A DNA stretch of 42,567 bases from Rubrivivax sp. (GTDB taxonomy: Bacteria > Pseudomonadota > Gammaproteobacteria > Burkholderiales > Burkholderiaceae_C). The stretch covers positions 1-42,567 of the forward strand of contig JAEUPE010000062.1 in assembly GCA_016790435.1 (NCBI GenBank), in the 5' to 3' direction. The notes beneath the pieces were generated by a model. That model worked only from the letters and a program-made list of their open reading frames with translations, ran no database searches and had not been told where the DNA came from. Positions within the stretch are counted from its first letter, which is position 1. The number at the start of each line of letters is the position of its first letter. This document shows, in pieces, positions 5,507 through 40,185 of the stretch. Made by a program: the position numbers and the translations under genes.

Positions 5507-6934
5507 GTGAAGAAGAGACTGATGACACTGGGCGCCGTGTTGGCGCTGTTGATGGGCCTGGGGGCGGCGCAAGCGGCCACCTACACCGTGACCAACAGTT
5601 CCGACAGCGGCCCGGGCTCGCTGCGTGACGCGATCGATCAGGCGAACGCCACCGTGGGCGTGGCCGACACCATCGTCTTCAGCTTCAGCGGCACCATCGT
5701 GCTCGCCTCGAGGCTTCCGTTCATCACCGACGAGCTGACGATCGACGGCGCGGGGCGCAGCATCACGATCAGCGGCGGCGGCGCTGTGCAGGTGATGATC
5801 AACCTAAGCACGCTGACGCTCAACGCGCTGACCATCGCCCATGGGCGATGCGACGGATCTCTTTTTTGTTCGACAGGAGGAGCAGGCGTTTACTCCCAAG
5901 GAGGCACGCTGACCGTCACCAACAGCACGTTCTCGGGCAACACTGCAGACAGTCTTGGCGGCGGCGCCATTCGGGGCATCGGCACGCTGACCATTCGCAA
6001 CAGCACGTTCTCGGGGAACTCGTCGCCGTCGTCTTTCGGTGGTGCGATCGCTGTCGCAGGCAGCCTCACCCAGCTGACGATCACCAACAGCACGTTCGCC
6101 AACAACTCCGGCGATCTTGGCGGCGCCCTGTCCGTCATCGGCGGTGCCGTGGCGACGGTGACGCACAGCACCTTGTCCGGCAATGCCACCTCGCTATCCG
6201 GCCGAGGCAGTGCCATCCACGTGCAAAACGGTGGGTCCTCGCTCAGCCTGGCCAACAACATCGTTGCGGGCGGTGGTGCCAATGGCAACTGCAGCGCTGC
6301 GCCCTTCGGCGGTGTGCCGCCCATCGACCTCGGCGGCAACCTCAGCGACGACGCGACCTGCGGCTTCACGCAAGGCACGAGCGCGAGTAGCACCCTCGCG
6401 CAACTCGGCCCGCTGCAAGACAACGGCGGCCCGACGCTGACGATGCTGCCGCTCACCGGCAGCCCGGCCATCGGGCAGGGGGTGAATCAGCTCGCCATCG
6501 ACGCGGGCCTTGCGACCGACCAGCGCGGCACGGGTTTCGCCCGCATCAGCGGCGCCACGGTAGACCGCGGCGCCGTCGAGGTGCAGGTGCCGGCCGCCTC
6601 GGCGCTGACGGTGTCGCCGGGCACGGTGTCGTTTGGCACGGTGCACCGCTTGAGCCTGCGCTACCAGTTGCTGACGCTGAAGAACAACGGCACCACCGCG
6701 GTGACGTTGAACCCGCTGACGGTGACGCCCGCGCCCGGCACGACGGTCTGGGAATTCACCGCGTTCAGCTTGTGCCCGCGCACGCTGGCCGCGGGCAAGA
6801 GCTGCACGGTGAAGGTGGTGCTGTTCGCCGCCGAACTGGGCGCGCGCGCGGCCACGCTGACGATTCCCAGCAGCGCCAGCGGCAGCCCGCTCACGGTGCC
6901 GCTGAGCGTGACGGTGACGCGCATCGGCAACTGA
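5507..6934 (+). CDS. Exported right-handed parallel beta-helix protein with a choice-of-anchor Q region and C-terminal Ig-like domain
   Basis: A 475-residue protein. The GTG at 5507 has GAGGAG 7 bases upstream and starts a good signal peptide (MKKRL, hydrophobic core, cleavage after GAAQA). Residues 24-250 are a beta-helix: repeated rungs with NSTFSGN and GGAI motifs. These follow the typical first repeat of this family (TVTNSSDSGPGSLRDAI). Residues 285-345 match the choice-of-anchor Q segment (LPLTGSPAIGQG, then DQRGTGFAR and DRGAVEV). Residues 350-475 form an ASPM/SPD-2/Hydin-like Ig domain (VSFGTV, LTLKNNGT, AGKSCTVKV). Such proteins are surface or secreted; binding or polysaccharide-related roles are possible but unproven. 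No PEP-CTERM or sortase tail is present. Confidence 0.85.
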   Translation: MKKRLMTLGAVLALLMGLGAAQAATYTVTNSSDSGPGSLRDAIDQANATVGVADTIVFSFSGTIVLASRLPFITDELTIDGAGRSITISGGGAVQVMINLSTLTLNALTIAHGRCDGSLFCSTGGAGVYSQGGTLTVTNSTFSGNTADSLGGGAIRGIGTLTIRNSTFSGNSSPSSFGGAIAVAGSLTQLTITNSTFANNSGDLGGALSVIGGAVATVTHSTLSGNATSLSGRGSAIHVQNGGSSLSLANNIVAGGGANGNCSAAPFGGVPPIDLGGNLSDDATCGFTQGTSASSTLAQLGPLQDNGGPTLTMLPLTGSPAIGQGVNQLAIDAGLATDQRGTGFARISGATVDRGAVEVQVPAASALTVSPGTVSFGTVHRLSLRYQLLTLKNNGTTAVTLNPLTVTPAPGTTVWEFTAFSLCPRTLAAGKSCTVKVVLFAAELGARAATLTIPSSASGSPLTVPLSVTVTRIGN

Positions 6935-6980
6935 AGCCGCACGGGGGCGAGAGCGGGGCACGCTGTGCCGGCTCACCCCC

Positions 6981-8457
6981 TCACCCCATACTGCCCTCCG
7001 CCCCCTCCGCCCCCTCCGCGCTCCCCGCCAGCGCCGCCTGCGTGGCGTCATCGAAGAGCACGGCCTGGCTGCCGCCTGCGGCCTGCAGCTTCAGGCGCAG
7101 GGCCCGGTCCACCGGCTCGCCGACACAGGCATAGGTGGCGCGCTGGTGCGTGCCGGCCTGCCCGGCCACGACCTCGCCGCTGGCGATGCCGATGGCGATG
7201 CGCAGCGCTGGCTTGCCCTGCGCGGTGCGCTCGGCATTGAGCAACTCGATCATCTCCACCGCGTCGCGCGCCGCACGCGCTGCAGCGGCGGGCGCAGCGG
7301 CCGGATCGGGAAGGGGTTGAGGGGCGCCGAACAGCGCCGTGATCTCCGCGCCCACCATCTGATTGACCACGCCGCCATGCTGGCTGACGGCGTCGAAGAG
7401 CAGCAGGTAGCAGGTGTTCAGCAGATCGAAGGTTTCCTCCGCAGCCTGGGTCCCAGACGGATCGGCCAAGCCCAAAACGCCGCAGGCCAGCACCGTGGCC
7501 GGCAGGCGCCGGCCGCTGTTCTGGAAGCCGCCCAACGCCAGGTCCTGTGCCACCGCGGCGCCGGCAAAGCGCGCCGCCGCTTCGCGCTGCTGCTCGTGCC
7601 TTCGCTTCTTCGCGAGGCTCGCGTCGACGCGCGCCTTCAGCAGCACCGGGTTCACGGGCTTGTGCAGGTAGTCGTCGGCACCGAGCTCGATGCAGCGCGC
7701 CACGTTGGCGGTGCCTTCGAGGGAGCTCGTGACGATGACGGGCAGGTGGCGCCACTGCGGGTGCTCGACGAGCCGCTGCAGCAGCTCGAAGCCGCTCATG
7801 CCCGGCATGTCCAGGTCCAGCAGCATGAGGTCGAAAGGCGCCTCCTCGTGCAGCCGCTGCAGGGCCTGCAGGCCGCCTTCGGCGCTGGCCACCTCGTGCC
7901 CCTGCAGCTCGAGCATGCGCGCCAGCAGCAGCCGGTGCACGCGGTGGTCGTCCACCAGCAGCAGGCGCGCGCGCGGGCTGGCGGGCATCTGCGCCAAGGA
8001 CGCGTTCGCCACGCCGGCCGGCCCCGCACCGGCGGCGGCGCCAGTGGCGACGCCGCGGGTGGCGCTTCCCGCGCTGCCCGCGATGCCGGCGCCGGCCGTG
8101 GCGGTGGCCACCGTGCCGGCCGCGGCCGGCGTCGCCTCGGCCATGAAGCGGTAGCCGCGGCCGGGCACGGTGGCAATGAGCTGCGGCCCGAGCAGCTTGC
8201 GCAGCACCGAGATGTGCACCTGCAGGTTGTTGTCTTCCACCACGAGGCCGGGCCAGACCAGATCGAGCAGCTCGGCCTTGGACACCACGCGCTCGCGCCG
8301 CAGCACCAGCGCCGTCAGCACGTCGAAGGCGCGGCGGCCGAGCGGCGCCGGCTGGCCGTCGGCGAGCAGCAGCCCCTCGGCGCAGCGCAGCTCGAAGCGG
8401 CCGAAGGCGAAGATGTGCGCTGGCGCCGATGCCGAGGTCGCTGCCGCCGCGGCCCGC

Positions 8458-8465
<8 letters not shown>
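6981..8465 (-). CDS. Winged-helix / receiver / degenerate class III cyclase-like regulator
   Basis: A 494-residue protein. Residues 15-110 are an OmpR/CadC-type winged helix ([10 protein letters not shown], then [13 protein letters not shown] and a PGRGYRF end). An Ala/Gly-rich linker runs to 165. Residues 166-285 are an intact receiver: D172/D173, phospho-acceptor D217, S247 and K269. Residues 320-475 resemble the class III adenylyl cyclase domain, but both metal-binding Asp positions are changed (Gly329 and Ala373) and the transition-state Asn is Asp453, so catalysis is unlikely. The ATG overlaps the stop of the upstream hybrid kinase by 8 bases, so the two are coupled and probably form one phosphorelay. 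The C-terminus is a GAE repeat. Confidence 0.85.
6994..7020. repeat. Three 9-bp tandem units encoding a Glu-Gly-Ala repeat
   Basis: CCCTCCGCC at 6994-7002 and 7003-7011, then CCCTCCGCG at 7012-7020. On the minus strand these encode the EGAEGAEG tail of the cyclase-like regulator. The units are in frame, so slippage would change tail length only. Confidence 0.7.
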
Positions 8466-11055
<2,590 letters not shown>

Positions 11056-27710: not shown

Positions 27711-28940
27711 TCAATCGTGGTGCTGCCCGGTGACGTAGACCGTGCCGGTGAAGCTGGAGACGGGCCTTCCGTCGGCGCGCGTCACGTCGACCCGGTACAC
27801 GGCCAGCTTGCGGCTGCGCGAGACCTCGCGCGCTTGCGCCGTCAGCGTCTCGCCGGCGCGGGCCGCCTGCTGGTAGGTGATGTGCGCGTCGATGCCGGCG
27901 GCCACTGTGCCGTGCGAGTTGGAGGCGAGGCCGAAGGCCGTATCGGCCAGCGCGAAGATCACGCCGCCGTGGCAGGTGCCGTTGAAGTTGAGGTGGTCGG
28001 GACGCAGCGTGAGTTGCACCTCGGCCCCGCCGGGCCCGCCGCGCACGCAGACGATGCCGGTGGCGCGTGCGTAGGGGTCGCCCGCGGCCAGGCGGAAGAC
28101 ACGTGCGCTGGCAGCAGCCGCTGCCGCGGCCTTGGGGTCGACGTGCAGGCGGCGGCCGTGACCCCCATGGCCGCCGTGCGCGAGGGCCTGGTCGGCGAGC
28201 GCCGCCATGCCCGCGCCCGCGCTGGCGTGAACGCTCAGCACCGGCACCTTCCATGCACCTGCCGCGCCCTGGGCGCGCAGGTGCAGCATCTCGCGCAGGT
28301 CGCGCGCCGCGGCGTCGGCACCGGGCAGGTCGGCCTTGCTGACCACCAGCAGGTCGGCGATCTCGAGGATGCCGGCCTTGATGGCCTGCACCTCGTCGCC
28401 CAGCCCCGGCGGGCAGACGACGATGCGCGTGTCGGCCACGGCCATGATCTCGACCTCGGACTGGCCGGCACCCACGGTCTCGACGATGATGGTGTGAAAG
28501 CCGGCCGCGTCGAGCACGTCGACGATGGCGCGCGTCGTGGGCGACAGGCCGCCGAGGTGCCCGCGCGAAGCCACCGAGCGGATGAAGACATCGGCGTGCG
28601 CGCCGTGTTCACCCATGCGGACGCGGTCGCCGAGCACGGCGCCGCCGCTGAGCGGGCTCGAAGGATCGACGGCGACGACGGCGATGCGCTGGCCGCGGGC
28701 GAGCAGCTCGCCGAGCAGCGCATGCACCAGCGTCGACTTGCCGGCCCCCGGAGCGCCGGTGATGCCGATGACGTGCGCCCGGCCGAGATGCGGCACGAGC
28801 GTTGCGCGCAGCGCCGCGGCGTCGGGCGCACCCTGCTCGATGCGGCTGATGGCGCGCGCCACGGCGCCGCGCTCGCCGCGCAGCAGGCCCGGCGGCAAGT
28901 GCAGGCCGGCCGCGCGGGCGTCGGCCGGATCCGTGCTCAC
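27711..28940 (-). CDS. meaB: MeaB-type G-protein chaperone fused to a PaaI hotdog thioesterase
   Basis: A 409-residue two-domain protein. Residues 1-255 are the MeaB/ArgK GTPase: Walker [10 protein letters not shown] (62-70), the [19 protein letters not shown] block, ETVGAGQ and the SKAD base-recognition motif (201-204). MeaB proteins load and protect B12-dependent acyl-CoA mutases. A His/Gly linker (HGGHGGHG, 255-262) leads to a PaaI-like hotdog (280-409) with [20 protein letters not shown]. The C-terminal dimerisation arm of stand-alone MeaB seems replaced by the hotdog. The ATG overlaps the mutase stop (ATGA). The stop-free junction shows a true fusion. Confidence 0.9.
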
Positions 28941-30661
28941 ACGAAGGCCTGCACGTGGCCGAAGCCGAGCTCGCGCCGCAGCGTGCCGCAGATCTCGCCG
29001 TGCGTGCAGCCGGCCTCCGCCGCCTCGACCACGCGGCCGAAGACGTTGTCGCCGGCCGGCCGTGCCTCTTCGCCCGCGGCCCGTGCCAGCGCGTCGAGCG
29101 CGCGCTGCACGTCGGCCTGCGAACGCGCCGCCTTGAAGGCGCGGAAGTCATCGAGGTACGCTTGCATCGTCGCGGGGTCGGGGCGGGTGTTGATGGCGCG
29201 GGCGCTGCGGTCTTCTTCCACCGGGTAGGCGTTGACACCGACCAGCGTCTGCTCGCCGCTGTCGATGCGGGCCTGGAAGCGGCGCGCCGACTCGCCCACC
29301 ATGCGCTGCACGAGGCCGGACTCCACCGCCTTGTACATGCCGCCGGCCTGCTCGACCTGGGCCATCACGCGCTCGATCTCGGCCTGCATCTGGTCGGTGA
29401 GCGCCTCGACGTAGTGGCTGCCGCCCAGCGGATCGATGACGTCGGTGAGGTGGGCCTCCTCGCGCAGGATGTTCTGCGTCGCGATGGCGATGCGCGCGCC
29501 GGCTTCGCCCGGCACCGACAGCGCCTCGTCGTAGGCGTCGGTGTGCAGCGACTGCAGGCCGCCGAAGATGCCGGCCATGGCCTGCACGGCGACGCGGGCG
29601 ATGTTGTTGAGCGGCTGCTGGCGCGTGAGGTCGACGCCCGAGGTCTGGCCGTGGAACTTGAAGCGCCAGCTGCGCGGATCCCCGGCGCCCAGCCGATCGC
29701 GGGTCACCTTGGCCCAGATGCGGCGCGCGGCGCGGAACTTGGCCACTTCCTCGAAGAAGCTGATCGAGATGTCGAAGAAGAAGGTGAAGCGCGGCAGGAA
29801 CTGGTCGGGGTCCATGCCGCGCGCCAGGCAGTCCTCGGCGTTCTGGATGGCCGTGCTGAGCGTGAAGGCCACCGCCTCGGCCGGCGTGGCGCCAGCCTGC
29901 TGCATGTGCTGGCCCACCACCGACATCGGGTTCCACTTCGGCACGAAGCGGTTGCAGAACTCGATGTGGTCGCCGAGGACGCGCCGCGCACCGGGCAGCG
30001 CGAGGCGGAAGAACATGTGGTTGGCCACGTAGTGGCTGAGGTAGTCGCTCTGGTTGCTGGTGCCGGTGATGGTGCGCCAGTCGGTGCCGCGCTTCCTGGC
30101 GGCGGCGAGCATGAAGGCCAGCAGCGTGAACGGGCTCGGATCGTTCATCGCACACGAGGTGGTGGCGAGGTCCACGCCCTGCAGCGCGCGGTCCATGTGC
30201 GCAGCCGTGTTGACCACGGTGCCGCAGGTGCCGAGCAGCTCGAAGTGCGACTCGTCCATGTCGTAGCCGCGGAAGACCGAGTTGCACGGGATCAGCGACA
30301 CGGCGTTCGCGCCGGCGCCCAGCACCTCGAGCAGGCGCGCGTTGTATTCGGCGGGCGTGCCGTGTCCGATGAGCTGGCGCTGAGTCCAGGTGCGGCCGCG
30401 GTGCATCGTGGCGTAGATGCCGCGCGTGTAGGGGGCCTGGCCGGGCAGGCCCATGTCGCTCTCGCGCTCGGGCTGCCAGTCGGCCGCCGTGTACAGAGGC
30501 TTGATCGGTACGCCCGAGCGGTTGGCCACCGGGCGGTCGGGGCCGATCTGCTCGGCGTAGTCGTGCTGCCAGCGCGCCAGCGCCGGGTCGGCGCCGGCGG
30601 GCACCTCGGCAGATGTCCCCGCAGGCATGGCGGCCAGGGGGGCGTCAAAGGGCTTGTTCAT
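28937..30661 (-). CDS. Acyl-CoA mutase large (catalytic) subunit, atypical substrate pocket
   Basis: A 574-residue catalytic subunit of the methylmalonyl-CoA mutase superfamily without a B12 domain, as in isobutyryl- and 2-hydroxyisobutyryl-CoA mutases. Conserved: [10 protein letters not shown] (CoA entry), PKWNPMSV, H252 (catalytic His244 of P. shermanii), and [11 protein letters not shown]. By-eye alignment shows unusual pocket residues: Leu97 at Tyr89, Ala213 at Arg207, Asn203 at Gln197, and [10 protein letters not shown] in place of FDLPTxxGYD. So methylmalonyl-CoA is improbable and the real substrate is open. ATG 30661 starts the conserved part; it overlaps meaB downstream and follows the small subunit by 106 bases. 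Confidence 0.88.
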
Positions 30662-30767
30662 GCGAGTGGCTCCAATGGACAGTGGGCGCGGCTGGAGGTT
30701 GGCGTGTGGCGGCTGGCGCGATGTGCGGCGCGGGTGAGCCGGGACGCGCACTCCGTCAGGCGCGGGC

Positions 30768-31196
30768 TCAGGCAACGGCGCGGCGCGCGCGCACGCCGGC
30801 GGCGAGCGCGCGCACGCTCGCGGCGATGTCGGCGAGCGCCGTGCCCGGGTGGAAGACCTGCGAAACACCGGCCTGCAGGAGCAGCGGCTCCTCGTCGTCA
30901 GGCACGATGCCGCCGACGATCACCGCCACGTCGCCCAGGCCGGCGGCGCGCAGCGCGTCCATCAGCTTGGGCACGATGAGGTGATCGGTGGCCAACGAGC
31001 TGATGCCGATCACGTCGACGTCTTCCTCGGTGGCCAGTTTCACCACGGTGGCGATCTCCTGCCACGGTGGCGTGTAGATCACCTCCATGCCCGCGTCGCG
31101 CAGCGCCGCGGCGACGATCCGGCTGCCGCGGTCGTGGCCGTCGAAGCCGATCTTGGTGATGAGCACCTTGGGGATGATCGAGGGCGCTTCGCTCAT
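30768..31196 (-). CDS. Acyl-CoA mutase small (B12-binding) subunit
   Basis: A 142-residue cobalamin-binding subunit. The DxHxxG motif is present (D19, H21, G24 in FDGHDRG); H21 would be the lower cobalt ligand. The later ISSL and [11 protein letters not shown] motifs line the nucleotide tail pocket. Its ATG overlaps the TetR stop (ATGA), an unusual coupling of regulator and enzyme. It pairs with the catalytic subunit encoded next. Confidence 0.92.
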
Positions 31197-32021: not shown

Positions 32022-32510
32022 TCAGGACACCACGAACGATGCCGCGCCGGTGGCGATGAGCTCGCCCTCGTCGTTGTGCAGCGCCATCTGGGTCGAGCCA
32101 ATGCGCCCGCCCAGGCGGGTGACCTGGGCCGTGGCGTCGAAGTGGCGGCCCAGGCCCTGGCGCAGGAAGTCGATGCGCAGGTCGATGGTGCCCATGCGCG
32201 CGAAGCGGTGCATCACCTGCATCGCGCCCTCGCCGCGGTGCCGCTCGGCAATGCCCACCATCAGGGCCAAGCCCGCCATCGCGTCGAGCACGGAAGAGAT
32301 CACGCCGCCGTGCAGGCGGCCGTAGGTGAAGTGCCCGACGAGGTCGGGCTTCATCTCGAAGCGGCCGCGCACGTCACCGGGCCGCAGGGAGAGGATCTTC
32401 AGCCCCAGCAACTCATTGAAGCGGATGTGCCGCTCGAACATCTCGCGCAGGCTGTGCTCGAAGCGCGCCTGCTCCTCGGCGCTGCGTGGCGCGGGCAACG
32501 GCGAGGTCAT
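32022..32510 (-). CDS. PaaI-type hotdog thioesterase
   Basis: A 162-residue hotdog protein with the motif YGRLHGGVISSVLDAMAG around residue 72. It would hydrolyse acyl-CoA, perhaps a dead-end intermediate of the adjacent pathway. Its ATG overlaps the stop of the beta-keto acid cleavage gene (ATGA), so it is the last gene of the carboxylation operon. A 121-base gap separates it from the mutase operon. Confidence 0.87.
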   Translation of the reverse strand: MTSPLPAPRSAEEQARFEHSLREMFERHIRFNELLGLKILSLRPGDVRGRFEMKPDLVGHFTYGRLHGGVISSVLDAMAGLALMVGIAERHRGEGAMQVMHRFARMGTIDLRIDFLRQGLGRHFDATAQVTRLGGRIGSTQMALHNDEGELIATGAASFVVS

Positions 32511-33403
32511 GCCAGCGCCGGCGCGCCCTTCAGCCCCAGGCGCGAACGCGCCTCGGCGGGGCTCGCGATCTCGCGCCCGCACTCGCGCGCCACGTGCGCC
32601 AGCGCCTCGATGAGGGGGCCGTTGCCCTTGGCACGCTCGCCGCCGGGCAGGTAGAAGGTGTCTTCCAAGCCGGTGCGCAGCATGCCGCCGAGCTCGGCCG
32701 TCTTGCGGTGCACGGGCCAGATCTCGGCGCGGCCGATGAGCGTGGTCTGCCACACCGCGTCTTTCGGCGCGTAGCGCGGCAGCAGCGCCAGCAGGTCGGC
32801 GTCGCAAGGCATGCCGCTCGCCACGCCCATGACGAAGTTGACCTCCGGCACGCCGGTGAACATGCCGGCCTTCAGGTACATGCCGACGCTGCGCACGATG
32901 CCGACGTCGAAGCACTCGAATTCCGGGTGCGTGTCGGCCTCGGCCATGGCGTCGAGCATCTGCTTGATCTTGCCCACCGGGTTGTCGAAGACCATCGGCG
33001 GCCACGCCCAGGTGCCGTCCTCCTTGATCTTGAGGTAGTTGAGGCTGCCGGCGTTGCAGGCCGCGGCTTCGGGCTTGACGCGCCGGATGCAGGCGATCGG
33101 GCCGGAGACGTCCTTGCCCACGACGCCCGTTGTGAGGTTGATGATGACGCCCGGGCAGGCGGCGCGGATGGCGTTCACCACGGCCTCGGCGACGTCGGGG
33201 TCCCAGCTCGGCATGTGGCCCATGCCCGGCTCCTGCGAGCGCAGGTGCACGTGCATGATGCTGGCGCCGGCGTTGAAGGCGTCGCGCGCCTCGGCGGCCA
33301 TCTGCTCGGGGGTCACGGGCACCGGGTGCTGCCGGGGGTCGGTGAGCACGCCGGTGAGCGAACAGGTGAGGATGGCCTTGTCGCGGTTCGGCGAGGCAGT
33401 CAT
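32507..33403 (-). CDS. Beta-keto acid cleavage enzyme (BKACE, DUF849)
   Basis: A 298-residue TIM-barrel protein of the 3-keto-5-aminohexanoate cleavage family. The zinc ligands HVH (H51, H53) and the RTGLED motif (R243, E247, D248) are present, as is EVNFVMG. Enzymes of this family react a beta-keto acid with acetyl-CoA to give acetoacetate and a shorter acyl-CoA. ATGA overlaps at both ends couple it to the biotin carboxylase gene upstream and the thioesterase downstream. Its presence in this operon suggests a keto-acid intermediate; no HMG-CoA lyase is in the window. Confidence 0.88.
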   Translation of the reverse strand: MTASPNRDKAILTCSLTGVLTDPRQHPVPVTPEQMAAEARDAFNAGASIMHVHLRSQEPGMGHMPSWDPDVAEAVVNAIRAACPGVIINLTTGVVGKDVSGPIACIRRVKPEAAACNAGSLNYLKIKEDGTWAWPPMVFDNPVGKIKQMLDAMAEADTHPEFECFDVGIVRSVGMYLKAGMFTGVPEVNFVMGVASGMPCDADLLALLPRYAPKDAVWQTTLIGRAEIWPVHRKTAELGGMLRTGLEDTFYLPGGERAKGNGPLIEALAHVARECGREIASPAEARSRLGLKGAPALA

Positions 33404-35349
33404 GGCGCGATCTCCAGTTCGACGAGCACGGCGCCGGCGGCCACCGATGCCTTGGGTTGCGTGTGCACGGCCTTGACGGTGCCGGCAGCGGTGGCGGTGA
33501 GCCACATTTCCATCTTCATGGCCTCCACGCACACGAGCTGCTGGCCGGCGGCGACCGTCTGGCCGACGGCGACGCTGACGTGGGCGACGACGCCAGCCAC
33601 GGGGGCGCGAGCGCGGCGAGGGTCGGTGGTCACGTCGTTGGCGGGGTAGGGCGAAGCCTCGCTGAAACGATGAACGGCACCATCGATGGCGAGCTGCAGC
33701 GTGCCGCTTTCGGCCCCCTCGCCGAGCACCGCCTGCAGGCGGCGCCGCACACCGTCGACCGTGCAGCGCAAGGCGTGGCCCGCGCGCGATTCGCCCGGCC
33801 ACCCCTCCTGCGATTCGATCTGCACGCCCTCGGGCGGCGCGCGCAAGGTGCGCTTCTCGCCTTGGCACTGGAGCGTGAGGTCGAAGCGCGCCACGCTGGC
33901 CGGGCGGCCGTTCGTGGCGCCGGCCCACAGTGCCGCGGCGACGCGCCAGGCGTCATCGGGCGGCGCCGGGCGAGCGAGCAGCGGTTCGCCCGCGTCCTGC
34001 CATTCGTCGAGCAGCGTCGTTGTCATCGTCGCGGCGGCGAAGCGCGGGTGGTTCACGAGGTCGCGCAGGAAGCGGCCGTTGTTGGTCGGGCCGAAGAGCG
34101 GCACCTCCTCCAGCGCGCGCGTCAGGCGGCGGATGGCATCGGCGCGGTCGCGGCCGTGCGCGATGAACTTGGCGACCATCGCGTCGTAGTAGGGCGTGAC
34201 CTCGCCGGCGGCGGCGATGCCGTGGTCGATGCGGATGCCGCTGCCGGCGGCGGCATCGGGCAACCAGCCGGTGATGCGTCCCGTCTGCGGCTTCCAGCCG
34301 TCGTAGGGGTCCTCGGCGTACAGCCGCGCCTCGATGGCGTGGCCACTGAAGCGGATGTCGGCCTGCAGGCCCGGAATCCAGTGCGTCAGCGGTTCGCCGG
34401 CGGCGATGCGCAATTGCCACTCGACGAGATCGAAGCCGGTGATGCACTCGGTGACCGGGTGCTCCACCTGCAGCCGGGTGTTCATCTCGAGGAAGTAGTG
34501 CTTCAGCTGCGCGTCGACGATGAACTCGACCGTGCCGGCGCCTTGGTAGCCGACAGCGAGCGCGGCGGCCACGGCATCGCGGCCCATCGCCTCGCGCATC
34601 GCGGGGCTGACGACGGGCGAGGGCGCCTCCTCGATCACCTTCTGGCGCCTGCGCTGCGCCGTGCAGTCTCGCTCGCCGAGGTGCACGGCGTGGCCATGGG
34701 CATCTGCGAAGACCTGGATCTCGATGTGGCGGCCGCCTTCGATGAGCCGCTCGAGCATCAGCGTGCCGTCGCCGAAGGCGCTCTGCGCTTCGCGCCGCGC
34801 GCCGGCCAGGGCCTCGGGCAGGGCGGCGAGTTCACGCACGAGGCGCATGCCGCGGCCGCCGCCGCCGGCCACGGCCTTGACGAGCAGGGGCGTGCCGAGC
34901 TGGCGGGCCTCGCCGGCCAGGCGCTCTTCGCGCTGGTCTTCACCCAGGTAACCCGGCGCGCAAGGCACGCCCGCCTCGCGCATGCGCCGCTTGGCAGCGG
35001 CCTTGTCACCCATGGCCGAGATGGCCTCGGGTGGCGGGCCGATGAAGACGAGGCCCGCCTCGGCGCAGGCGCGCGCGAAGTCGGCGCGTTCGCTGAGGAA
35101 GCCGTAACCCGGGTGCACGGCCTCGGCGCCGGTCTTGCGCGCAGCCTCCAGCAGCGCCGCGATGTTCAGGTACGACTCCGCTGCCGGCGGCGGGCCGATG
35201 CGCACCGCTTCGTCGGCCAGCGCCACGTGCGGGGCGTTTGCGTCGGCGTCGCTGTACACGGCGACGGTGCGGTGGCCGAGCCGATGCGCCGTGCGCATCA
35301 CGCGACAGGCGATTTCGCCGCGGTTGGCGATGAGGATCTTCCTAAACAT
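33400..35349 (-). CDS. Acyl-CoA carboxylase alpha subunit (biotin carboxylase + biotin carrier), AtuF/LiuD-like
   Basis: A 649-residue subunit. It begins FRKILIANRGEIACRV, runs through the ATP-grasp region (GGGGRGMR, RDCTAQRRRQKVIEEAPS, LQVEHPVTE) and ends with a biotinyl domain carrying K612 in VEAMKMEM. It carboxylates biotin and passes it to the carboxyltransferase encoded at 37628-39238. In MCC and geranyl-CoA carboxylase the alpha subunit has this architecture. Position after the hydratase gene matches atuF order. ATG 35349 sits inside the loop of a long inverted repeat (35306-35376), a possible translation control. Confidence 0.9.
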   Translation of the reverse strand: MFRKILIANRGEIACRVMRTAHRLGHRTVAVYSDADANAPHVALADEAVRIGPPPAAESYLNIAALLEAARKTGAEAVHPGYGFLSERADFARACAEAGLVFIGPPPEAISAMGDKAAAKRRMREAGVPCAPGYLGEDQREERLAGEARQLGTPLLVKAVAGGGGRGMRLVRELAALPEALAGARREAQSAFGDGTLMLERLIEGGRHIEIQVFADAHGHAVHLGERDCTAQRRRQKVIEEAPSPVVSPAMREAMGRDAVAAALAVGYQGAGTVEFIVDAQLKHYFLEMNTRLQVEHPVTECITGFDLVEWQLRIAAGEPLTHWIPGLQADIRFSGHAIEARLYAEDPYDGWKPQTGRITGWLPDAAAGSGIRIDHGIAAAGEVTPYYDAMVAKFIAHGRDRADAIRRLTRALEEVPLFGPTNNGRFLRDLVNHPRFAAATMTTTLLDEWQDAGEPLLARPAPPDDAWRVAAALWAGATNGRPASVARFDLTLQCQGEKRTLRAPPEGVQIESQEGWPGESRAGHALRCTVDGVRRRLQAVLGEGAESGTLQLAIDGAVHRFSEASPYPANDVTTDPRRARAPVAGVVAHVSVAVGQTVAAGQQLVCVEAMKMEMWLTATAAGTVKAVHTQPKASVAAGAVLVELEIAP

Positions 35350-35466: not shown

Positions 35467-36315
35467 TCAAGGTGTGGCCGTCCCGTCGGCGGCGCGCGCG
35501 GGAGGGTCTTCGGGCACCCACTTCGGCTTGCGCTTCTGCACGAAGGCCATCGTGCCCTCCATGCCTTCGGTACCGAGCACGGCCTTCGAGAACACCGCCG
35601 CCGCCTCGGGCACGAGGGAGGCGGGCGTCTGGAAGCGGGCCTTGGCGAGCAATGCCTTGGTGGCGGCGAGCGCGCCCGGAGCGCAGGCGAGGATGCTCTT
35701 CAGCACGCGGTCCAGGGCCCAGTCCAGCGTCTCGGCGTCGTGCACCTCGTGCACCAGGCGCAGTCGCAGCGCTTCCTGGGATTCGACCTTGGCGCCGGTG
35801 ACGGCGAGTCGCTTGGCCTCGGCGTAACCCAGGCGCTCGACCAGGAACGGACCCACTTGCGCCGGCACGACGCCGAGGCCGGTTTCAGGCAGGCGGAAGA
35901 CCACGGTGTCGTCGGCGAGGGCGACGTCGCTCACGCAAGCCAGCCCGAAGCCGCCGCCCATCACCGTGCCCTGCAGCACCGTCACCAGCGCGAGGCCGGT
36001 GTTGGCATAGGCCACGCACAGGTCGCCGAAAGCGGCGTTGGTCTCGGCCATCGCGTTCGGGTGTTCGGCGAGCCGGCCGCGCGCCGCGGCCATGTCCTTG
36101 ATGTCGCCGCCGGCGCAGAAGTGGCCGCCTGCGCCGCTGAGCACGAGCACCCGCGTGTGCCCGTCCATCTCGGCTTGGGCGAGCACGGCACGCAGCTCAC
36201 GCACCATGGCCATCGACATGGCATTGCGCACGTCGGGACGGTTGAGGGTGACGTGCAGCACCGGCCCCTCGCGGTGCAGCAAGAGGGTCGTGAAGCTTGC
36301 GAGCTCGATGCTCAT
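35467..36315 (-). CDS. Enoyl-CoA hydratase, AtuE/LiuC-like
   Basis: A 282-residue crotonase with NRPDVRNAMS, the oxyanion motif HFCAGGDIKDM, and MGGGFGLACVSD plus a catalytic-Glu region at PETGLGVVPAQ. The GGHFCAGGDIKDM wording resembles isohexenylglutaconyl-CoA hydratase (AtuE) or methylglutaconyl-CoA hydratase, which fits its place between dehydrogenase and carboxylase genes. It would hydrate a carboxylated 3-branched enoyl-CoA. The start at 36315 has only a G-run from the adjoining hairpin repeat as ribosome site. Confidence 0.87.
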   Translation of the reverse strand: MSIELASFTTLLLHREGPVLHVTLNRPDVRNAMSMAMVRELRAVLAQAEMDGHTRVLVLSGAGGHFCAGGDIKDMAAARGRLAEHPNAMAETNAAFGDLCVAYANTGLALVTVLQGTVMGGGFGLACVSDVALADDTVVFRLPETGLGVVPAQVGPFLVERLGYAEAKRLAVTGAKVESQEALRLRLVHEVHDAETLDWALDRVLKSILACAPGALAATKALLAKARFQTPASLVPEAAAVFSKAVLGTEGMEGTMAFVQKRKPKWVPEDPPARAADGTATP

Positions 36316-36415: not shown

Positions 36416-37570
36416 TCAATGCGCGCCTTTGGGGAGGGTTCCCTCGAGCTTGCAGATGATGCCGAGCATCACCTCGTCGGCGCCGCCGCCGATGGAGGTG
36501 AGGCGCCCGTCGCGGTAGGCCTGCGAGAGCGGGTTGTCGGCCGTGAAGCCCATGCCGCCCCAGTACTGCAGGCAGCTGTCGGCCACCTCGCGGCCCAGTC
36601 GCCCGGCCTTGAGCTTGGCCATGCTGGCGAGCTTGGTCACGTCCTTGCCGCCGATGTACATCTCCACCGCGCGGTAGGTCAGCGCCCGCAGCGCCTCCAC
36701 TTCCGTGCGCAGTTCGGCGAGGCGGAAGTGCACGACCTGGTTGTCGAGGATGCTCTTGCCGAAGGCCTTGCGCTGGCGCGTGTAGTCGACGGTGAGGTCG
36801 ATCAGGCGGTCCATGGCCTTCAGGCCGGCGGCGGCGCCCCAGAGGCGCTCTTCCTGGAACTGCAGCATCTGGAAGGCGAAGCCCATGCCTTCCTGGCCGA
36901 TGAGGTTGCGGCGCGGCACGCGCACGTTGTCGAAGAAGAGCTGTGCCGTGTCGGAGCTGTGCATGCCGATCTTGTGGATCTTCTGCTTCGTGATGCCGGG
37001 GCTGTCCATCGGCACGACGATGAGGCTCTTGTTCTTGTGCGGCGAGCCTTCGCTGGTGTTGGCGAGCAGGCAGCACCAGTCGGCCTTGAGCCCGTTGGTG
37101 ATCCACATCTTGGTGCCGTTGATGACGTAGTCGCCGCCATCGACCTTGGCGGTGGTCTTCACGGCGGCCACGTCGCTGCCGCCGCCGGGCTCGCTCACGC
37201 CCAGGCAGGCCACGTAGTCGCCGGCGATGGTGGGCACGAGGTACTCCTTGCGCAGCTCGTCACTGCCGAAGCGGGCGAGCGCCGGCGTGGCCATGTCGGT
37301 CTGCACGCCGATGGCCATCGGGATCCCGCCGCAGGCGCACACGCCCAGCGCCTCGGCCATGACGAGGCTGTAGGAGAAGTCGAGTCCCGCGCCGCCGAAC
37401 TCTTCCGGGTACTTCAGGCCGAGCAGGCCGAGGTTGCCGAGCTTCTTGAAGACCTCGTGGCTCGGGAACTGCTCGGCTTTCTCCCACTCAGGCACGAAGG
37501 GATTGATCTCCTTCTCGACGAACTTGATCACCGTGTCTTCGATCTGGCGGTGCTCTTGCGTGAACTTCAT
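36416..37570 (-). CDS. Acyl-CoA dehydrogenase, AtuD-like
   Basis: A 384-residue flavoprotein with ACAD signatures CLGVSEPGGGSDV (about 122-134), KMWITNG (154-160) and QRKAFGK. The usual base position near the C-terminus is Gly (IGGGADEV), while E241 in FQEERLW occupies the alternative position used by isovaleryl-CoA and long-chain dehydrogenases, consistent with branched or long acyl-CoA. The order relative to carboxyltransferase and hydratase genes matches atuD (citronellyl-CoA dehydrogenase). Substrate not proven. Confidence 0.9.
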   Translation of the reverse strand: MKFTQEHRQIEDTVIKFVEKEINPFVPEWEKAEQFPSHEVFKKLGNLGLLGLKYPEEFGGAGLDFSYSLVMAEALGVCACGGIPMAIGVQTDMATPALARFGSDELRKEYLVPTIAGDYVACLGVSEPGGGSDVAAVKTTAKVDGGDYVINGTKMWITNGLKADWCCLLANTSEGSPHKNKSLIVVPMDSPGITKQKIHKIGMHSSDTAQLFFDNVRVPRRNLIGQEGMGFAFQMLQFQEERLWGAAAGLKAMDRLIDLTVDYTRQRKAFGKSILDNQVVHFRLAELRTEVEALRALTYRAVEMYIGGKDVTKLASMAKLKAGRLGREVADSCLQYWGGMGFTADNPLSQAYRDGRLTSIGGGADEVMLGIICKLEGTLPKGAH

Positions 37571-37627: not shown

Positions 37628-39238
37628 CTACATGCGGGCCACGCCGAAGGTGTTGGGGCGCAAGGTGCGGGCGGCGGCCTCGGCGGCGATCTGCAGGCAC
37701 AGGCCGAGGATGCGGCGCGTGTCGCGCGGGTCGATGATGCCGTCGTCCCACAGGCGCGCCGTCCCGAAGAGCGCCGTGCTCTCCGAGTCGAGCCGGCGGC
37801 GCAGCGCGTCGCTCATGGCGGCCAGCGCCTCGTCGTTGGGCTGCTGGCCCATCTTCGCGAGCTTGTTGCGGTTGATGATGTCCATCACCTTGGCCGCCTG
37901 TGCGCCGCCCATCACGGCCGTGCGCGCCGAAGGCCACGAGAAGATGAAGCGCGGGTCGAAGCCGCGGCCGCACATGCCGTAGTTGCCGGCGCCGAAGCTG
38001 CCGCCGAGCACGACGGTGAACTTGGGCACACGGGCATTCGCCACGGCCTGGATCATCTTGCTGCCGTGCTTGATGGCGCCGGCCTGCTCGGCGGCGCGGC
38101 CGACCATGTAGCCGGTGGTGTTCTGCAGGAAGACGAGCGGCGTGCCGCTCTGGTCGCACAGCTGGATGAACTGCGCGGCCTTGGTGCTGCCCTGCGGCTG
38201 GATGGGGCCGTTGTTGCCGATGACGCCGACGGCGTGGCCGTGCAGGCGGGCGTGCCCGCAGAGGGTGTCGGTGGCGTAGGAGGCCTTGAACTCGAGGAAG
38301 TCGCTGCCGTCGACGAGGCGGGCGACGACCTCGCGCACGTCGTAGGGCTCGCGATCGTCGGCGGGCACCACACCCATCAGCTCCTCGGCGGGGAAGAGCG
38401 GTTCCGGCGCTGGATTGCGCGCGGCCACCGTGCCCCACGGCAGCTTGTCGATGAGCTCGCGCGCCACGGCGATGGCGTGGGCGTCGTTCTCGGTGAGGTA
38501 CTCGCCGAGGCCGGTGATGGAGGCGTGCGTCTCGGCGCCGCCGAGCTCTTCTTCGGTGGCGTCTTCGCCGATGGCCGCCTTCACGAGCGGTGGCCCGGCG
38601 AGGTAGATGCTGCTGCGGTTCTTCACCAGCACCACGTAGTCCGAGAGGCCCGGCAAGTAGGCACCGCCCGCGGTGGATGCGCCGTGCACGACGGCGATCT
38701 GCGGAATGCCGGCGGCCGACAGCCGCGCCTGGTTGGCGAAGGTGCGCCCGCCGTCGACGAAGATGTCGGCCTGGTACAGCAGGTTGGCGCCACCGCTCTC
38801 CACCAACGCGATCAGCGGCAGCTTGTTCTCGCGCGCGAGTTCCTGCGCACGAAGCCCCTTCTTCAAGCCCATCGGTGCGACGGTGCCGCCCTTCACAGCG
38901 CTGTCGTTGGCGGAGACCAGCACGCGCTTGCCGCAGACGACACCGATGCCGACGATGCTGCCGCCGCCCATCACGCTCTTCTTGCCGTCGTCGTCGTGCA
39001 TGCCGAGGCCGGCGAGCGTGCTGAGCTCCAGGAACTCGCTGCCACGGTCAATGAGCCGGGCGACGCGTTCGCGCGGCAGCAGCTGGCCGCGCTCCTCGAA
39101 CTTCTTGCGCTTGCTCTCGCTCTCGGCGACGACCAGGGCCTCAAGCCGGCGCACCTCCGCCAGGCGCTCCGACATGCGAGCCGCGTTGGCCCGGAAGGCG
39201 GCCGAAGCGGGGTTCAGCGTGCTGCTCAGTGTCGACAT
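37628..39238 (-). CDS. Acyl-CoA carboxylase beta subunit (carboxyltransferase), AtuC/LiuB-like
   Basis: A 536-residue carboxyltransferase. Visible: RGQLLPRERVARLID near the start, the CoA-binding oxyanion segment SGGANLLYQ, VHGASTAGGAYLPGLSDY and, in the C-terminal half, IGNNGPIQPQGS and FGAGNYGMCGRGFDPRF. Compared from memory with methylcrotonyl-CoA carboxylase, the segment after IFVD is about three residues shorter (GGRTFANQ), similar to geranyl-CoA carboxylase. It transfers CO2 from the biotin of the AtuF-like subunit to the gamma carbon of a 3-methyl-branched enoyl-CoA. Exact substrate is open. Confidence 0.9.
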   Translation of the reverse strand: MSTLSSTLNPASAAFRANAARMSERLAEVRRLEALVVAESESKRKKFEERGQLLPRERVARLIDRGSEFLELSTLAGLGMHDDDGKKSVMGGGSIVGIGVVCGKRVLVSANDSAVKGGTVAPMGLKKGLRAQELARENKLPLIALVESGGANLLYQADIFVDGGRTFANQARLSAAGIPQIAVVHGASTAGGAYLPGLSDYVVLVKNRSSIYLAGPPLVKAAIGEDATEEELGGAETHASITGLGEYLTENDAHAIAVARELIDKLPWGTVAARNPAPEPLFPAEELMGVVPADDREPYDVREVVARLVDGSDFLEFKASYATDTLCGHARLHGHAVGVIGNNGPIQPQGSTKAAQFIQLCDQSGTPLVFLQNTTGYMVGRAAEQAGAIKHGSKMIQAVANARVPKFTVVLGGSFGAGNYGMCGRGFDPRFIFSWPSARTAVMGGAQAAKVMDIINRNKLAKMGQQPNDEALAAMSDALRRRLDSESTALFGTARLWDDGIIDPRDTRRILGLCLQIAAEAAARTLRPNTFGVARM

Positions 39239-39285: not shown

Positions 39286-40185
39286 TCATGTCTTGAAGAC
39301 CTCGGGCGTGACGGCCCGGTGGAAGCCGTCGAACGGCTTCGAATGGGTCGCGTCCTGCAGCGGGAAGATGGCGCTGCCGAGCGATGCGGCGCCGTCGATC
39401 TGCACCGTCACGCCGGTGACGAACGAGGCCGCCGGCGAGAGCAGGAAGCAGATGACGCCGCTCACCTCGGCCTCCAGGCCCATGCGCTTGAGCGGCACGG
39501 CGTTCTTGAGCTTCTTCAAGAGCGGCTGCATCGCCGGGCCGTAGGTGTCCATGCCACTGGAGGCGATCCAGCCAGGGGCCACGGCGTTGACGCGCACGCC
39601 GGCGTAGGCCCACTCGAAGGCCGCCGTCATCGTCAGGTTGCTCATGCCCGCGCGTGCGGCGCCGCTGTGGGCCATGCCGGGCATGCCGTTGCGGAAATCG
39701 GCCGTCATGTTGACGACGGAGCCGCCGTGCTTCTCCATGCATTGCGTGAAGAGCTCGCGCATCATGAGGAAGCCACCGGTGAGGTTGTTGGCCACGACGG
39801 CGTCGAAGCCCTTCTTGGCGATGGCCGAGAGCGGTGACGGGAACTGGCCGCCGGCGTTGTTGACCAGGCCGGCCACCGGGCCGTGCGCGGCGATCACCTG
39901 GGCGACGCCGGCCTTCACCGCCTCTTCGTCGCGGATGTCGAAGGCGATGGTGTGGCAGCGACCGCCGTCCTCGGCGATCTCGGCGGCGACACGCTCGAGC
40001 TTCTCGACTTTGCGGCCACTGATGACGACGGTGGCGCCGAGAGAGGCCAGTTCGTGCGCGACGCAGCGGCCGATGCCGCTGCCGCCGCCAGTGACCCACA
40101 TCACCTGGCCGGCGAAGAGGCCGGGACGCAAGACGCTGCGGTAGCCGGCGCGGACCGGCGGGAAGGGCGGGGTGGGAGCGTCCAT
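39286..40185 (-). CDS. SDR-family oxidoreductase, peroxisomal trans-2-enoyl-CoA reductase (PECR)-like
   Basis: A 299-residue SDR with cofactor motif TGGGSGIGR (TGxxxGxG) and NNAGG. In place of the YxxxK catalytic pair it reads HSGAARAGMSNL, the pattern I know from mammalian PECR (HSGAARAGVYNL), along with APGWI and CFLLSPAASFVTG. PECR-type enzymes reduce 2-enoyl-CoA with NADPH. It is the first gene of the minus arm, at the position of atuB (also an SDR). The operator palindrome lies just upstream; no clear ribosome site precedes the ATG. Confidence 0.87.
   Translation of the reverse strand: MDAPTPPFPPVRAGYRSVLRPGLFAGQVMWVTGGGSGIGRCVAHELASLGATVVISGRKVEKLERVAAEIAEDGGRCHTIAFDIRDEEAVKAGVAQVIAAHGPVAGLVNNAGGQFPSPLSAIAKKGFDAVVANNLTGGFLMMRELFTQCMEKHGGSVVNMTADFRNGMPGMAHSGAARAGMSNLTMTAAFEWAYAGVRVNAVAPGWIASSGMDTYGPAMQPLLKKLKNAVPLKRMGLEAEVSGVICFLLSPAASFVTGVTVQIDGAASLGSAIFPLQDATHSKPFDGFHRAVTPEVFKT

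Follow-up and report, generated by a model that had tools for sequence, protein, structure and literature searches.

Which acyl group does a two-subunit, B12-dependent mutase rearrange when its substrate pocket resembles that of neither methylmalonyl-CoA mutase (MCM), isobutyryl-CoA mutase (ICM) nor 2-hydroxyisobutyryl-CoA mutase (HCM)? The question is raised by a 42,567-nucleotide contig of Rubrivivax sp. (JAEUPE010000062.1, assembly GCA_016790435.1), hereafter called the window, on which a first-pass annotation had placed such an enzyme and had proposed that it may define another mutase class acting on a branched or functionalised acyl-coenzyme A (CoA). We find it likely that the enzyme is a heteromeric adenosylcobalamin (AdoCbl)-dependent acyl-CoA mutase of the pivalyl-CoA mutase (PCM) class, which would interconvert an alpha-quaternary acyl-CoA and a 3-methylacyl-CoA, with pivalyl-CoA and isovaleryl-CoA as the most likely simplest substrate pair, making the class distinct and probably already described rather than new. 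The genes at the centre of the question are as follows.

27711..28940, minus strand: fusion of a MeaB G-protein chaperone, spanning roughly residues 1-255, with a PaaI-like hotdog domain, roughly residues 284-409; GTG start
28937..30661, minus strand: acyl-CoA mutase large (substrate-binding) subunit, putatively PCM-class, 574 amino acids, ATG at 30661, stop at 28937
30768..31196, minus strand: B12-binding small subunit, 142 amino acids, ATG at 31196, stop at 30768, 74% identical to Xaut_5044 over 130 amino acids
31193..31900, minus strand: TetR-family regulator

Along the minus strand the order is TetR, B12 subunit, mutase large subunit and MeaB-hotdog fusion, with the TetR stop overlapping the B12-subunit start, the mutase stop overlapping the GTG start of the fusion, and a gap of ~106 bases between the genes of the two mutase subunits as the only junction from TetR to the fusion that does not overlap. 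Both mutase genes lie where the first-pass annotation had put them, and the proper B12 subunit that it described was borne out by a Pfam B12-binding domain match of 84.2 bits. The large subunit matched Pfam MM_CoA_mutase (548.7 bits, 1.6e-164) and acid_CoA_mut_N (473.7 bits), with no named equivalog above cut-off among the Pfam and NCBIfam profiles, and its nearest solved chain by phmmer was 4r3u, the large subunit of HCM (362 bits), followed by human MCM.

Of the 126 mutase rows, which count repeats of the same gene and each match over 380 or more query residues, 107 share at least 63.7% identity with the window protein and the other 19 reach no more than 40.4%. Aligned from this family were 88 distinct rows, with plasmid copies from Pseudosulfitobacter and Sulfitobacter (58.6% and 58.5% identical) standing outside the aligned set; the genome scan covered the best 80 of 164 relatives, so that the sample is drawn from the near end of the family. 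A quick IQ-TREE analysis of 55 rows, 32 of them family members hand-picked for spread, recovered the family as one clade (Shimodaira-Hasegawa-like approximate likelihood ratio test support 100) whose stem measures 2.54 changes per column, apart both from a group of the three HCM rows and from a group of twelve rows with the three MCM references. Two further rows, L123 and L124, sat on very long branches with an unsure place; L124 carries no label, and the tree contained no named ethylmalonyl-CoA mutase.

The pocket of the large subunit sets the family apart as well. In MCM numbering, with columns set by the 5req chain (a Y89F mutant, so that Phe89 in this row is not wild type) and M. tuberculosis MCM (6oxc_A) as another reference row, the window mutase has Leu89, Gln197, Asn207, Gln243 and His244, positions whose numbering and roles we presume. 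Gln197, Gln243 and His244 are each present in all 88 aligned family rows; Leu89 occurs in 87/87 rows having that column and Asn207 in 88/88, which argues that the pocket pattern is not due to chance. MCM AFDL (positions 116-119) is replaced by IPCN, placing Ile at position 116, where HCM has Asp. The retained catalytic histidine, the leucine in place of Tyr89 and the loss of FDxPT (SLIPCNSV in the window), all pointed out in the first-pass annotation, were confirmed, and the change of Tyr243 to Gln had been overlooked. Its asparagine at Gln197 is doubtful, coming from an ungapped reading: both phmmer and MAFFT set a one-residue insertion (TSNQ, within TGTSNQSD) before Gln197, so that Gln197 is retained and Arg207 becomes Asn. 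The loss of Arg207 holds under either reading and the proposed alanine is doubtful, and the broader statement that every specificity position differs stands for a pocket unlike those of MCM, ICM and HCM, with Gln197 as the position that is kept. Speaking against the gapped placement, model strand 199-203 in the AlphaFold2 prediction ends at Asn, as would suit the ungapped reading; mean predicted local distance difference test (pLDDT) values of 65 (block 201-210) and 57 (211-220) are too low, however, for the model to decide the placement of the insertion. The structure model that had been suggested as a check was obtained and proved too poor for the pocket, with a mean pLDDT of 69.6 and a Foldseek root-mean-square deviation of ~16 Å or more.

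MCM Tyr89 and Arg207, which presumably bind the substrate carboxylate, correspond to Leu and Asn in the window enzyme (Ala at 207 if read ungapped), and Ile90 and Asp117 (HCM numbering), which we take to be the specificity residues of HCM, correspond to Leu and Ile. HCM (4r3u) shares with the window protein a separate large subunit and an aliphatic residue at 89, at 37.7% identity over 504 columns, but has an acid at MCM position 116, Gln207 instead of Asn and Tyr243 instead of Gln, and falls in a separate clade. Lacking the carboxylate-binding Arg207, the HCM acid and the ring at position 89, the pocket would offer space for a bulky non-polar acyl group. At positions 89 and 207 the two IcmF rows compared have Phe and Gln, where the window enzyme has Leu and Asn; replacing IcmF Phe598, which we take to equal MCM position 89, with Ala reportedly improves pivalyl/isovaleryl activity. 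According to passages in PMC10481361 and PMC9974510, IcmF converts pivalyl- and isovaleryl-CoA into each other. It shares the fold family with the window enzyme (4xc6; 5cjw with pivalyl-CoA) but is a distant, single fused chain. Membership in MCM, HCM or IcmF was rejected on the basis of the residues and the tree.

Nested in the family clade lies Xaut_5043 of Xanthobacter autotrophicus Py2 (plasmid pXAUT01), to which the window large subunit is 67.3% identical over 542 columns. Together with Xaut_5044, it is presumably the characterised PCM; the authentic enzyme was reportedly described by Kitanishi, Cracan and Banerjee in 2015. PCM is reported to act on pivalyl-CoA and isovaleryl-CoA without isobutyryl-CoA activity. 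The phrase 'pivalyl-CoA mutase' was not found in the literature searched, and neither locus tag was mentioned among the papers listed in a separate search. Like the window, the Xanthobacter pair has a two-subunit layout, its own MeaB-type gene and the order TetR-B12-mutase-MeaB-PaaI, and Xaut_5043 is identical at Leu89, Gln197, Asn207, Gln243, His244 and residue 285. By contrast, it differs at positions 116, 119, 121 and 125 and at a few more, and on pXAUT01 MeaB and PaaI are encoded separately, whereas the window has them fused. The Xanthobacter row continues with CoA-ligase and LIV-type genes (TetR-B12-mutase-MeaB-PaaD/PaaI-PaaK-AMP ligase-LIV transporter), which were not seen among the annotated window genes. 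A second mutase on pXAUT01, L100, carries the residues of HCM and shares 83% identity with it over 506 columns, indicating that Xaut_5043 is not the HCM of that plasmid and that both classes reside on one plasmid. The proposal of another class therefore stands in that the family is a clade of its own outside MCM, HCM and IcmF, and probably fails in its novelty, since Xaut_5043, the presumed PCM, lies inside it; the phylogeny suggested as a check accordingly separated the protein from those three classes and probably placed it in a known one through that presumed identity. The guess of a branched acyl-CoA fits.

Radical chemistry is established for the mutase family. In the proposed reaction, AdoCbl homolysis would yield a 5'-deoxyadenosyl radical, which would take a hydrogen from a methyl group of the alpha-quaternary acyl-CoA; the thioester carbonyl group would then move to that methyl carbon to give a 3-methylacyl-CoA, with pivalyl-CoA to isovaleryl-CoA as the simplest case. 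MeaB, fused to the PaaI-like hotdog, would load and repair the cofactor, and a dehydrogenase, biotin carboxylase and hydratase route may consume the product, removing beta-methyl branches. Candidates for such a route lie upstream of the mutase, in a cluster that resembles the acyclic-terpene (Atu) type.

32022..32510, minus strand: hotdog thioesterase, PRK11688 type, whose cluster was seen in 15 loci
32507..33403, minus strand: beta-keto acid cleavage enzyme (BKACE)
33400..35349, minus strand: acyl-CoA carboxylase alpha subunit (biotin carboxylase and biotin carboxyl carrier protein), substrate type not diagnostic
35467..36315, minus strand: enoyl-CoA hydratase, matching best among solved chains an unnamed hydratase (4k3w) and a putative isohexenylglutaconyl-CoA hydratase (4zu2)
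36416..37570, minus strand: acyl-CoA dehydrogenase, substrate type not diagnostic
37628..39238, minus strand: carboxyltransferase, geranyl-CoA carboxylase type (5ikl, 721.5 bits, versus methylcrotonyl-CoA carboxylase 3u9r, 545.2 bits)
39286..40185, minus strand: short-chain dehydrogenase adjoining the carboxylase genes

Both carboxylase routes, in the leucine and the Atu pathways, take 3-methylacyl-CoA. In one relative, L056, the mutase, MeaB, carboxyltransferase, hydratase, biotin carboxylase and dehydrogenase genes run in the same direction within ~8 kb, and the carboxyltransferase is of the methylcrotonyl-CoA-carboxylase type (633 bits, versus 425 for the geranyl type). Ahead of this row lie a hotdog gene and an IcmF-like fused isobutyryl-CoA mutase gene (5812-9123), the latter immediately upstream of the PCM-class genes and pointing the same way. 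Within 10 kb of the mutase, a carboxyltransferase was seen in 6 of 49 loci (48 relatives and the window), against ~0.7 expected by chance, or 0.52 by a rougher density; the density was a hand count of 89 of 114 carboxyltransferase matches, those at >=40% identity, in 26 genomes of ~138 Mb in rounded sizes. These six cases represent three arrangements, with the window counted, and not six independent events. The gene neighbourhood was rejected as proof; the context modestly fits a 3-methylacyl-CoA product without proving it. No HMG-CoA-lyase-like (3-hydroxy-3-methylglutaryl-CoA lyase-like) gene was present among the annotated genes of the window cluster, where no search aimed at one was made. 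The BKACE gene (32507-33403) in this Atu-like cluster may take over the cleavage step.

Several points weigh against the assignment to the PCM class with pivalyl-CoA as substrate. The assignment hangs on one presumed identity, that of Xaut_5043/5044. The L056 dehydrogenase is not clearly of the isovaleryl type by its best match. Of 83 relatives examined, 48 had flanks of 5 kb or more on either side; among these, a carboxyltransferase is near only five (four geranyl type, one methylcrotonyl type), and neither a CoA ligase nor two LIV-type genes are near 30; a ligase is near 15, at least two LIV-type transporter genes are near 15, either is near 18 and both are near 12. The window carboxylase is, by its sequence matches, of the geranyl rather than the methylcrotonyl type, and an exclusive tie of the window copy to the leucine pathway was rejected for this reason. 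At positions 116, 119, 121 and 125, presumably near the pocket or corrin, the residues are I, N, V and Y in the window enzyme and 57 others, unlike the L, C, G and I of Xaut_5043, L074, L098 and L099, so the window enzyme and Xaut_5043 may not act on exactly the same substrate; further patterns occur, with even the nearest Rubrivivax copies varying at 125.

These last two points are also those that suit the alternative that fares best, namely the same chemistry with a longer natural substrate (a 2,2-dimethylacyl-CoA or another alpha-quaternary acyl-CoA), whose 3-methylacyl-CoA product would be dismantled by the geranyl-CoA-carboxylase-type cluster. It is further favoured by the clear typing of the window carboxyltransferase, within ~10 kb of the mutase, by the putative isohexenylglutaconyl-CoA hydratase being the second-best solved chain for the hydratase after 4k3w, and by a geranyl-type neighbour in four relatives (L005, L011, L017 and L026), typed only by a better match to the carboxyltransferase of the window than to that of L056. 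In its own genome, only 80.8% complete, the window carboxyltransferase is the sole member of its group at E <= 1e-60, and the one other match, 36% identical, is taken as a putative propionyl type. However, the neighbourhood is not conserved, as the five of 48 relatives indicate, and four genomes (G219, G220, G223 and G224) carry an 83-92% identical carboxyltransferase elsewhere, outside the flanks examined, so the adjacency may be incidental. We consider a longer substrate possible, if improbable.

Given that the link to PCM is presumed, and that the pocket motifs differ from those in the other 23 rows of the alignment (4 references and 19 other mutases), the family could instead be a genuinely new class performing another rearrangement unrelated to pivalyl chemistry, with Xaut_5043 not the characterised PCM; we hold this to be unlikely, because the residues, the order of the genes and the row in L056 all agree with pivalyl/isovaleryl. 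A reading as an HCM, MCM or ICM whose pocket has drifted would suit an HCM large subunit being the nearest solved relative in sequence, but is scarcely credible given the separate clade, the absence of the HCM acid, Arg207 and an aromatic residue at 89, the fixation of Leu89 and Asn207, and the presence of MCM-pattern mutases, and of the HCM-pattern one on pXAUT01, in genomes or a plasmid that also carry family members.

What is new at this locus is the partner of the presumed PCM-class mutase, a MeaB without its dimerisation tail fused to a PaaI-like hotdog. In the 57 loci with enough flank among 83 considered, the B12 gene is near the mutase in 56, MeaB in 54 and a TetR relative in 53; 37 loci have the hotdog fused to MeaB and 7 have it separately, while none was found in 13. 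The hotdog part matched TIGR02286 at 108.8 bits, below the cut-off of 118.9, and has a separate counterpart in Xaut_5041 (38% identity over 125 amino acids). A passage of PMC9974510 describes a C-terminal extension of MeaB as involved in dimerisation. The TIGR00750 match of the window MeaB part reaches only position 235 of 300, and similarity to Xaut_5042 (329 amino acids) ends at residue 238, indicating that this extension is missing, with the hotdog in its place. Ser69, Asp92, Asp105, Glu154, Asp182, Gln185 and Lys188, given as MeaB functional residues in PMC9974510, occur at the same numbers in the window fusion and do not vary among 10 fused copies, a comparison made by number without alignment to the MeaB of that paper. 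In a structure model of the fusion (mean pLDDT 72.8, predicted template modelling score 0.55), a G-domain-like part is followed by a hotdog-like part, by our reading of its secondary structure, and we infer that hotdog self-association may replace the lost dimerisation tail. One literature search, judged by title or abstract opening, found no MeaB-thioesterase fusion among the papers listed. The fusion would link cofactor repair with CoA release, as a testable idea.

More broadly, the clade might comprise general 'neo-acid' mutases for 2,2-dialkylacyl-CoAs of various lengths, shifting the CoA carbonyl away from the alpha-quaternary carbon and passing the resulting 3-methylacyl-CoA to methylcrotonyl- or geranyl-CoA-carboxylase-type modules, with the MeaB-thioesterase fusion freeing CoA from stalled esters next to the mutase, a tentative extension that we consider possible, if improbable. 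Beta-oxidation is blocked by quaternary carbons, and, if this extension is true, the clade would represent a two-step natural strategy for breaking them. The signature Leu89/Asn207/Gln243 with the TSNQSD and PCN motifs, present in several bacterial classes, makes genomes searchable for this predicted ability, and the neighbouring carboxylase clusters hint at product use.

The gene is patchy in distribution: a member at >=67% identity was present in 9 of 200 sampled genomes of the GTDB family of the window, its own included, and in neither of two same-genus genomes. Carriers in culture include Ramlibacter lithotrophicus (L016) and X. autotrophicus Py2. Metagenome-assembled genomes titled Propionibacterium (L066) and Desulfovibrionaceae (L060) bear copies; L066 falls among betaproteobacterial copies in the tree, so mis-binning is possible, and L060 is not in the tree. 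On a plasmid of Sphingobium sp. YC-XJ3 (L094), the mutase and MeaB genes occur twice within ~13 kb, with insertion sequence elements between and beside them.

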